Assembly (NCBI GenBank): GCA_019359445.1
Contig: JAHHHJ010000028.1
Coordinates: forward strand, 1 to 64,000
From: Kastovskya adunca ATA6-11-RM4
GTDB lineage: Bacteria; Cyanobacteriota; Cyanobacteriia; Cyanobacteriales; Coleofasciculaceae
Length of the DNA: 64,000 nucleotides
Reading direction: 5' to 3'
This document shows positions 7,045 to 49,073 of this stretch, piece after piece. Positions within the stretch are counted from its first letter, which is position 1, and each line of letters begins with the position of its first letter. The notes below the pieces were generated by a model. That model made no database searches. It was not told where the DNA came from and worked only from the letters and a program-made list of their open reading frames with translations. A program made the position numbers and the translations under genes.

Positions 7045-7346
7045 ATAATTTTTACCTCATACCAAAAGTATTAATACGTTCGTAATCAATTTAAGGATAG
7101 CTCACTCTCAAATTCTCCCGCTTAGAACTTGTATCCTGATCAAACGCGATCATATTCATCAGAACTGGTTACTGTTTACGGCGACAATTTGATCAATCAG
7201 TAGGAATTTGTCAAATCCTACTTACTCAACACCTGAGATTTTTTGTTGAGAGTGCCTATACCTCGCCATGAGCTATGCACCTAGATAACAGGCGAATCCG
7301 GCTTAGTAATTGTTCCTAAGCCGGAATTTTCAATCCTGATAAATTT
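7045..7346. other. 302-bp spacer between the two radical SAM paralogues
   Basis: No gene seen. It holds a 10-bp perfect inverted repeat tccggcttag / ctaagccgga (7297-7306 and 7316-7325) just after the stop of the upstream paralogue. On the minus strand there is no T tract behind it, so it may be an attenuator or mRNA-end hairpin rather than a standard terminator. The rest (7045-7290) presumably carries a separate promoter for copy 1. Confidence 0.5.
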
Positions 7347-8942
7347 TTAGCTGTTCAGGGCAATTGATTCTTTTATTTGAGGAATTGAAGATTGTTCATT
7401 AGCTTCGGATGCTGAGTACTGAGCCAGTTGGGCTTCGATTTCGTCGCGCACAATTTGGCGGTACTGGATGAAGTGTTCGATGAGGGCGCAATTGCTCAAG
7501 TAAGGCACAAACACATTCGGATTGCGCCGCATAATTGAGAAGAGTTGACGCCAGAACTGGAAGCGGGTGCTGCGCTTGATTCCCTGTCGCCAGAAGATAG
7601 TTAGCACGGCCTTCATTTCGATTGGCTCCAGCATCCGAAACGGTACTTTGTGAGGAGCTGGCGTCATGGTCATGAAGTGCCGATAGACGCGGGAGAGGTA
7701 GCGGCTCGGCTCATAGAGTTCCCAAAAGCAGTTGGCATACTCACGAGCCAGTTCTTCTAGCGGTCGGGTTGGTGTAAAGTTCATTAGAGCCATCTGATGA
7801 CCCTGCGTCTCCTGGTTCTCCTCCAGCAGACGACCTTCGTTTTGTAGCCGCTTCCATAGAGCCGTATTAGGCAGAGCTTGGAGCATACCAAACATGGCTT
7901 TGGGGATTGCCGTTGCTTCCACAAAGTCAATGATCCGCTGACCTGCTCCTGTCTTCTCACCATCAAAGCCCAGGATAAAACCAGCCATCACACTCAAGCC
8001 TGCCCGATTGATAATCTCAACCGATTCCATGAGAGAGTTGCGGGTATTCTGAAACTTCTGCGTCAGCGACAAACTATCGGTGTCTGGTGTCTCAATGCCC
8101 AAGAACACCGCACCGAAGTTAGCCTGGATCATCAGATCTAGCAGTTCCTGATCCTGAGCTAAATCCACTGAGGCTTCGGTTGCAAGGCGGAAGGGGTATT
8201 GATTAGCTGCCATCCAGGAACCGAGTTCGCGCAGTAAGAGTTTAACGTTGCGCTTGTTACCAATGAAGTTGTCATCTACTAAGAACACCGAGCGCCGCCA
8301 CCCTAGGTCATAGAGACTTTGCAACTCAGCCACCATTTGCGCGGGCGTTTTGGTGCGCGGCTTCCGTCCATAGAGAACGATAATGTCGCAGAACTCGCAC
8401 TGGAACGGACATCCCCGCGAGAACTGCACCGACATTTCGTTGTAGGCGTCCAAATCCAGCAGGTCAAATCGAGGAACGGGTGTGGTAGTGACATCAGGCT
8501 TTTCGCCCCAAGCGCTGAATGTACCTGAGGTTTCCCCCGCTAAGAGAGCTTCAACCAAAAGCGGTAAGGTAATCTCGCCCTCATCCAAAACCAAAAAGTC
8601 TACCCCGGCTTCCTGAGCGGCTTCAGGAACGGAGGTAACGTAGGGCCCTCCCGCCGCTACTAGTTTGCCACGCCGCTTCGCTTCGCGAATTAGGTGCAAC
8701 AAATCGGGTTTCTGGACAATCATGCCGGAGACAATCACTAAATCGGCCCAATCCCAGTCGGCTTCGGTTTCCAGGCGAACATTACGGTCTACCAGGCGAA
8801 ACTCCCAGGTTTGGGGCAGGATAGCCGCAACGGTGATCATCCCCAAAGGGGGAAGAGAAACCTTCCGCCCGATTAGTTCTAAGGCTTTATCAAAAGACCA
8901 GAATGATTTAGGAAAGAGGGGATATAGGAGTAAAACTCGCAT
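7347..8942 (-). CDS. B12-binding radical SAM protein (DUF4070/HpnP-like), copy 2
   Basis: 531 residues, collinear with the neighbouring copy from end to end. It has the same VLLLYPLFPKSFWS start, AAGGPYVTSVPEAAQ in the cobalamin-binding half, an identical stretch around RGCPFQCEFCDIIVLYG, then VDDNFIGNKRN, FLGIETPDTDSLSLTQKF and the DUF4070-like C-terminus. All three cluster cysteines are kept. The copies differ mostly in the surface parts of the N-terminal domain and in the tail, so this is an established duplication with both copies apparently functional. AAGG lies 8 bases before the ATG. Specific chemistry is unknown; methylation is plausible from the HpnP relationship. Confidence 0.9.
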   Translation of the reverse strand: MRVLLLYPLFPKSFWSFDKALELIGRKVSLPPLGMITVAAILPQTWEFRLVDRNVRLETEADWDWADLVIVSGMIVQKPDLLHLIREAKRRGKLVAAGGPYVTSVPEAAQEAGVDFLVLDEGEITLPLLVEALLAGETSGTFSAWGEKPDVTTTPVPRFDLLDLDAYNEMSVQFSRGCPFQCEFCDIIVLYGRKPRTKTPAQMVAELQSLYDLGWRRSVFLVDDNFIGNKRNVKLLLRELGSWMAANQYPFRLATEASVDLAQDQELLDLMIQANFGAVFLGIETPDTDSLSLTQKFQNTRNSLMESVEIINRAGLSVMAGFILGFDGEKTGAGQRIIDFVEATAIPKAMFGMLQALPNTALWKRLQNEGRLLEENQETQGHQMALMNFTPTRPLEELAREYANCFWELYEPSRYLSRVYRHFMTMTPAPHKVPFRMLEPIEMKAVLTIFWRQGIKRSTRFQFWRQLFSIMRRNPNVFVPYLSNCALIEHFIQYRQIVRDEIEAQLAQYSASEANEQSSIPQIKESIALNS

Positions 8943-47888: not shown

Positions 47889-47930
47889 GTATCAAGTTCT
47901 ACCAAATTTTCAACGCAGATCCGTTATGGT
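47889..47930 (+). promoter_or_regulatory. NtcA-activated promoter of the LysR (ntcB-like) gene
   Basis: GTAtcaagttcTAC (47889-47902) fits GTA-N8-TAC exactly. A -10 element TATGGT (TAN3T) lies at 47925-47930 after 22 bases, the textbook spacing. Expected transcription start ~47937, gene start 47971. Confidence 0.85.
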
Positions 47931-47950
47931 CAAAGGCATTAGATGAAAAT

Positions 47951-47966
47951 GTAATGTAATTTACAT
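47951..47966. promoter_or_regulatory. Second GTA-N8-TAC box with palindrome in the ntcB-like leader
   Basis: GTAatgtaattTAC (47951-47964) is a second NtcA-like box and overlaps the perfect palindrome ATGTAA-T-TTACAT (47954-47966). It lies downstream of the inferred start site and 5 bases before the ATG, a position suited to repression or to LysR self-binding. Confidence 0.5.
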
Positions 47967-47970
47967 AACC

Positions 47971-48954
47971 ATGCGGATTGAGCAGTTGCAAGCATTTCTG
48001 GCGATCGCCCAAACGGGTAGCTTTGGACAGGCGGCGCAAAAATGTCAGGTAACTCAGTCCACGATTAGCCGTCAAATTCAGTCTTTAGAAGCGGATTTGG
48101 GTGTGTCTCTGCTGCACCGTGCTGGGGTTGCCAAGCTGACGTTGGGGGGAGAACGCTTGTTACCTCATGCCCTGAAGATTTGCCAGGAGTGGACAAATGC
48201 TACCCAAGAGTTAGCAGATTTACTCGCAGGTAAGCAACCAGAACTGTGTGTGGCGGCGATTCACTCCGTCTGCGCTTACTATTTACCCCCGATGTTACAG
48301 GAGTTTTGCCGCCAGCACCCCGATTTGCAGTTACGGGTGACGGCATTGGGTAGCGATCGCGCTTTGAAGGTGTTGAAAGACGGTTTAGTCGATGTAGCGA
48401 TTGTGATGAATAATCGCCTGCTCACCATTAGCTCAGAAATGGTAGTGGATGTCCTCTACGACGAACCGGTTGAAGTATTAATGGCGGCAAACCATCCCCT
48501 GGCTCAGTACAAACAGGTGCCGTGGTCAGAACTGGTGAAATATCCGCAAGTTGTGTTTAAAGATGGCTACGGGATGCAACGTCTGGTACAAGAGCACTTC
48601 GCCCGTCAGGGAGCCGCCTTAAAAATTGCGATGGAATTGAACACCCTTGATGCCTTCCGGGGGGTTGTGCGCCAAGGGGAATTAGTTGCCCTCTTACCTC
48701 AATCGGCTTTAATTGAGGCGCTAAGTGACTCGACTCTAGCCATAAGAGCGATCGCCTCCACCCCAGATACTGATTTCGACCTAACGCGCCAGGTTGTCCT
48801 CGTCACTACCCAAGACCGCCTGCAAATTCCTCCGATTCGGCATTTTTGTCAATTAGTCAAGGCGCTTAAAATCCCCACGGCTAGCTCTTTGCAGGAGCAG
48901 TCATTCGTTGATCAGGGTTCCTTGTTAATAGCACCAATCACCAGTTCCTGTTAA
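47971..48954 (+). CDS. ntcB: LysR family regulator, NtcB-like
   Basis: 327 residues. The N-terminal helix-turn-helix is IEQLQAFLAIAQTGSFGQAAQKCQVTQSTISRQIQ (part, ~3-37) and the co-inducer domain starts ~90 (ELCVAAIHSVCAYYLPPMLQEF). The body (SDRALKVLKDGLVDVAIVMNN, EPVEVLMAANHPLA) resembles the NtcB activators of nitrate-assimilation genes as I remember them; the NtcA promoter in front supports this name. The nitrate genes themselves are not in the window. The last codons are part of an 80-bp duplication. The TrpD2-like gene follows. Confidence 0.8.
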   Translation: MRIEQLQAFLAIAQTGSFGQAAQKCQVTQSTISRQIQSLEADLGVSLLHRAGVAKLTLGGERLLPHALKICQEWTNATQELADLLAGKQPELCVAAIHSVCAYYLPPMLQEFCRQHPDLQLRVTALGSDRALKVLKDGLVDVAIVMNNRLLTISSEMVVDVLYDEPVEVLMAANHPLAQYKQVPWSELVKYPQVVFKDGYGMQRLVQEHFARQGAALKIAMELNTLDAFRGVVRQGELVALLPQSALIEALSDSTLAIRAIASTPDTDFDLTRQVVLVTTQDRLQIPPIRHFCQLVKALKIPTASSLQEQSFVDQGSLLIAPITSSC

Positions 48955-49073
48955 CTTAATTTCATCCTTCATCCTTCACACTTCATCCTTAACATCGCTA
49001 ATGGTTAATAGCACCAATCACCAGTTCCTGTTAATTTAATTTCATCCTTCATCCTTCACACTTCATCCTTAAC
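48924..49073. repeat. 80-bp tandem duplication covering the ntcB-like 3' end
   Basis: Two 70-base copies (48924-48993 and 49004-49073), offset 80, differing at one base (48955 C / 49035 T). Each begins within the last ten codons and stop of the LysR gene and ends with ttcatccttc repeats. The second copy reaches the ATG of the next gene. Confidence 0.95.

Follow-up and report, generated by a model that had tools for sequence, protein, structure and literature searches.

A conserved second NtcA-type box in the transcribed leader of cyanobacterial ntcB, a candidate brake on an NtcA-activated promoter

NtcA and NtcB jointly set nitrate use in many cyanobacteria. In Kastovskya adunca ATA6-11-RM4, the gene for an NtcB-like regulator is preceded by two boxes with the half sites and spacing of NtcA sites, the first in front of the predicted transcription start and the second between this start and the start codon, which raises the question of whether the second box is a regulatory element and, if so, which protein reads it. 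The locus lies in a 64,000-nt stretch of DNA (the window, which belongs to contig 12 of a genome of 5.08 Mb), on the forward strand. The original prediction, made from the letters of this stretch, had offered two readings of the pair: dual NtcA sites, or an NtcA site together with a site for self-binding by the LysR protein.

The gene itself (47971-48954, with its ATG read from the sequence at 47971) encodes a LysR-family regulator of 327 aa with the Pfam domains HTH_1 and LysR_substrate. Of 195 genomes of the same order, 184 encode a match to its product at E <= 1e-75. No NCBIfam model exceeded its cut-off among the matches listed (25 of 53), and a nirA start was detected in 29 of the 80 named ntcB loci, which together with 30 loci fetched as nirA loci made a set of 59; LysR domains, orthology and a link with nitrate genes are all present. 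Because the promoter in relatives is nearly that published for Anabaena sp. PCC 7120 ntcB (all0602), from which the close relatives L208 and L252 differ at few positions (compared with the available text of PMC3898017), and because nirA starts lie nearby, we take the gene to be NtcB. An 80-bp unit repeated 1.9 times with 98% matching (48924-49073) lies across the 3' end of ntcB and the intergenic stretch that precedes a trpD-like gene. Two cyanobacterial ntcB genes in the wider collection lie on contigs titled Tatlockia sp. and Candidatus Gracilibacteria (L227 and L251), titles that probably reflect binning contamination.

The host genome encodes NtcA (TIGR03697, 389.5 bits against a cut-off of 244.95) and holds a nitrate cluster with two nitrite reductases. 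At L138 (G000 contig 16, 7121-18586), nitrate ABC transporter genes, nirA, a gene for a NarK-family transporter and a second nirA stand in a row, the first gene of which (7121-8437) had no match at 1e-100 and was named nrtA by position; NtcA-type boxes precede nrtA, nirA, nrtP and the second nirA. An extended NtcA-type site, TGTATCAATCTGTACA, is also found upstream of ntcA itself (L373, G000 contig 11, 911-926).

The first box, GTATCAAGTTCTAC (box 1, 47889-47902), has the form GTA-N8-TAC and is followed 22 nt further on by the -10 box TATGGT (TAN3T, 47925-47930). With the start placed by the rule that NtcA centres at -41.5, and by the mapped transcription start of Anabaena ntcB (Table 2 of PMC3898017, in the available text), box 1 is centred at about -41.5 and the predicted leader is 34 nt long (47937-47970). 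The leader sample comprised 190 ntcB loci (80 named ones, 109 others from the order and the window itself), one of which was dropped for containing N; 174 leaders were distinct, and GTA-N8-TAC was present in the zone from -110 to -41 in 140 of them, against a shuffle mean of 2.9. Across 239 distinct ntcB upstream regions (one further locus, short or holding N, was excluded), 170 had a confident box 1 and 69 did not, and TAN3T stood exactly 22 nt past the box in 159 of the 170. Box 1 therefore has the arrangement of a class II NtcA promoter, GTA-N8-TAC with TAN3T 22 nt downstream. The canonical NtcA-activated promoter has been described, also for Anabaena ntcB, which shares the box, the 22-nt spacing and the -10 box (PMC3898017, available text). 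That box 1 is a canonical NtcA-activator site, as originally predicted, is well supported by this sequence comparison and is already known biology for Anabaena.

The second box (box 2) contains the core GTAATGTAATTTAC (47951-47964), which fits GTA-N8-TAC and does lie past the predicted start and before the ATG, as had been claimed. It had also been described as overlapping a perfect palindrome, the 13-nt inverted repeat ATGTAATTTACAT (47954-47966), in which two 6-nt arms flank an unpaired T. The repeat is there, but it is not what is conserved. A perfect match to ATGTAANTTACAT is found once in the whole genome of 5.08 Mb, and allowing up to one mismatch gives 10 places, against 8 for the reversed control, so that the palindrome as such is at about chance level; the nearest relatives by path (L057, L065 and L184) carry box 2 at the same place with other interiors and without ATGTAATTTACAT, so that the palindrome is not the conserved element and its exact form is incidental. 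What is conserved is an 18-bp dyad, ATGTA-N8-TACAT (47949-47966, centred at about +21.5), a form present at 8 places in the genome of the window, compared with 2 for the reversed control.

A single GTA-N8-TAC box is weak evidence. The pattern is cheap, with 5.9 matches expected in the window, where 14 were found (none of 100 shuffles had as many), and the weight is carried by conservation. Of the 174 distinct leaders, 77 have a perfect GTA-N8-TAC in the 40 nt that precede the start codon (shuffles: mean 1.0, maximum 4), compared with 2 of 174 in a control stretch at -190 to -150 and none of 174 in the coding region. When half-site spacers from 2 to 13 were compared, a spacer of 8 was found in these 77 leaders and each other spacer in 0-3. 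Of the 174 leaders, 50 carry the whole dyad ATGTA-N8-TACAT, that of the window included. Across 195 genomes, TGTRATTYAGGCTACA has 21 matches free of mismatches, of which 20 are at ntcB; most matches with one mismatch lie away from ntcB, and the reversed control matches in many genomes too. The looser pattern GT-N10-AC also peaks at offsets of 155-161 from box 1, within the coding sequence, a warning against counting this pattern alone.

These data bear on the simplest alternative, that box 2 is a chance match or reflects functionless shared ancestry, a concern given that many of the sampled genomes are related. Among 105 representatives less than 70% identical to one another, the perfect box was still found in 29 (shuffles: mean 0.5, maximum 3), its spacer is strictly 8 nt, and it recurs outside the order. 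For the last comparison a box 2 matrix was used, whose threshold was reached by 43 of 8500 shuffled sequences; since leaders of the order, including that of the window, served to train it, only the 20 promoters with a confident box 1 among the 63 loci read outside the order are independent of it, and 9 of these 20 had an accepted box 2, including three near copies (L315-L317). We therefore consider chance or inert ancestry very improbable. The distribution is patchy all the same: an accepted box 2 is absent from 58 of the 170 promoters whose box 1 is confident, among which are members of the family of the window, and on a tree of 139 NtcB proteins its presence changes 21 times (gains and losses pooled; shuffled mean 33.6), with at least 8 of these changes forced by well supported branches. 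The conservation of box 2 is strongly supported; the lack of conservation that would have spoken against the original prediction did not appear, and because it is conserved, box 2 is very probably a real regulatory element.

The position of box 2 was considered relative to both the transcription start, set in each leader by the -41.5 rule, and the start codon. Of the 112 accepted sites, 96 have their centre between +17.5 and +21.5 (+21.5 in the window), and 70 lie 6 nt before the start codon. Being close to the start codon as well, box 2 in most leaders does not reveal which of the two anchors fixes it. In the six cases in which the gap to the start codon is 10 nt or more (one of them, L318, below the matrix threshold), five boxes lie 58-62 nt from box 1 and that of L086 lies 53 nt from it; box 2 of L320, L323 and L318 is separated from the start codon by 103, 13 and 26 nt, respectively, and keeps a distance of 59-62 nt to box 1. 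Conversely, in L311 and L314-L317 box 2 is 5-7 nt from the start codon and 49-52 nt from box 1. One accepted site, in L223, lies off the general pattern at 88 nt from box 1.

The proximity to the start codon would suit a role in the mRNA, in which box 2 would form a small hairpin, or a start-stop pair (ATG followed by TAA or TGA), that tunes translation. Box 2 lies within the leader, frequently 6 nt ahead of the start codon, 43 of 61 distinct sites contain the start-stop pair, and L311 and L314-L317 preserve the start-codon distance at the expense of that to box 1. However, covariation of the two arms did not exceed that in shuffles, on which ground an RNA hairpin was rejected, the bases GT and AC are both retained in more of the 61 distinct sites (50) than is the start-stop pair, and L320, L323 and L318 hold to box 1 with the start codon farther off. 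Taken together, these observations make an mRNA-level role improbable. A second activator promoter driven from box 2 was ruled out in either direction, as TAN3T was absent at 21-23 nt from box 2 on both strands at all 112 sites; lacking a -10 box on either strand in these 112 cases, box 2 is not a canonical activator site.

As for the protein that reads box 2, LysR proteins often regulate their own genes, and the half site ATGTA is one variant of the ATGYA type seen in nirA promoters, both of which would fit binding by NtcB itself. A matrix for the NtcB-type site (threshold 13.4) was built from 35 dereplicated nirA promoters (from L260-L289 and named loci). In 24 of the 35, the motif ATGYAAAAAAYGCAT is conserved 36 nt before the NtcA box; this motif agrees with TGCA-N5-TGCA, which we take to be the NtcB site of Synechococcus. 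Box 2 shares with it an inverted repeat of ATGYA-type half sites near an NtcA box. The nirA motif, ATGYA-N5-YGCAT, differs in having a spacer of 5 rather than 8, with its symmetry axis on a base instead of between bases, in lying upstream of the NtcA box, and in being nearly absent at ntcB: only 4 of 238 ntcB upstream regions held it above threshold, compared with 1 in one shuffling round, and the best scores at the ntcB of the window were 1.9 and 0.1. Box 2 does not have the form of the NtcB site of nirA, and since that motif is nearly absent at ntcB, the proposal of an NtcA site combined with LysR self-binding finds no support here. NtcB self-binding was accordingly rejected as the leading idea, and NtcB is an unlikely binder of box 2.

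The other half of the original prediction, dual NtcA sites, is the best available reading, with a qualification. Box 2 is conserved with the geometry of an NtcA site, the GTA-N8-TAC or GT-N10-AC core with its fixed 8-nt spacer; its interior is not that of strong NtcA sites. In most lineages the interior is conserved as AATYYAGGC, which scores about as random interiors do under two NtcA matrices. The median score under NtcA matrices was -0.7 at box 2, whereas box 1 reached 6.7 and random interiors -2.6; ranked among random interiors, the window stood at percentile 0.31 and the consensus at 0.81. An NtcA-like interior is not strictly defining, because only GTN10AC is highly conserved in the ChIP consensus over 508 sites (PMC3898017, available text). 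The retention of GT and AC in 50 of the 61 distinct box 2 sites agrees with this consensus and speaks for NtcA.

Because this conserved interior is not NtcA-like, box 2 could instead be the operator of some other member of the CRP family (PtrA or a further NtcA paralogue) that recognises a TGT-N10-ACA geometry with AATYYAGGC as its own interior preference. Candidates exist, as the genome has ten HTH_Crp_2 matches, seven of them over the cut-off; of four HTH fragments scanned, L378 best fits PtrA, a fragment that itself falls far below the cut-off. Against this, box 2 has the core of an NtcA site, the window and its nearest relatives do not share the conserved interior, which varies there between retained half sites, and the variant of L315 has a good NtcA-like interior (percentile 0.94). 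We regard such an operator as unlikely. The published ChIP peak at ntcB would span both boxes if the leader of Anabaena 7120 resembles those of L208 and L252, and is too broad to separate them; its midpoint offset of 26.5 nt, examined for signs of double occupancy and compared with a median of 29.2 (sd 24.4) over 20 table rows chosen as promoter-type, is as in single-site promoters. Overall, NtcA is somewhat more likely than not to be the binder of box 2.

From the observed boxes, their spacing and their conservation we infer a lower-affinity NtcA site at box 2 that acts as a brake. At box 1, NtcA with 2-oxoglutarate would recruit RNA polymerase; when active NtcA is abundant it would also fill box 2, the weaker site judging by its interior. 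A dimer covering roughly +10 to +33 would extend into the downstream portion of the footprint of the polymerase, so that NtcA at box 2 (centred at about +17 to +22) would lie across the downstream edge of the enzyme, and hindered initiation or early elongation would be the simplest effect, capping the NtcB level in deep nitrogen starvation. Blocked elongation has been named as a possible mode for internal NtcA sites (PMC3898017, available text). We give this overall reading, a canonical box 1 promoter with a second, probably weaker NtcA-type leader site through which very active NtcA hinders transcription, a probability of roughly 0.5.

The reading has parallels in known systems. The NtcA-repressed genes rbcL, gor, gifA and gifB have in common an NtcA site placed to hinder RNA polymerase (available text of PMC3898017 and PMC6316151); by contrast, box 2 of ntcB lies past the start, in a promoter that also has an activating site. 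The closest comparison is Anabaena gifA, with two NtcA sites, one thought to activate and one to repress, which are centred at -77.5 and -28.5, whereas the ntcB boxes are at about -41.5 and in the transcribed leader (PMC6316151, available text). For Anabaena ntcB, the available text of PMC3898017 does not mention a second leader site; box 2 is present in relatives. Neither an NtcA site in the leader nor ntcB autoregulation was found in the literature covered, the primary promoter paper (Frias 2000), which may hold it, being outside that coverage.

Simultaneous activation and repression by NtcA has been called not understood for gifA (PMC6316151, available text), and box 2 touches the same puzzle, its defined 18 bp lending themselves to a simple test by mutation. 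We also entertain, tentatively and at clearly lower confidence, a broader reading of the leader site: an old, class-wide operator in the transcribed ntcB leader, read by a CRP-family protein through ATGTRATYYAGGCTACAT, unlike known NtcA sites, and limiting ntcB on top of NtcA activation. If true, nitrate control would contain a second input, or a mode of NtcA, that has gone unrecognised. For NtcB, a co-activator of nitrate use, a conserved second site in the leader of its gene would imply capping or timing and not a simple switching on.
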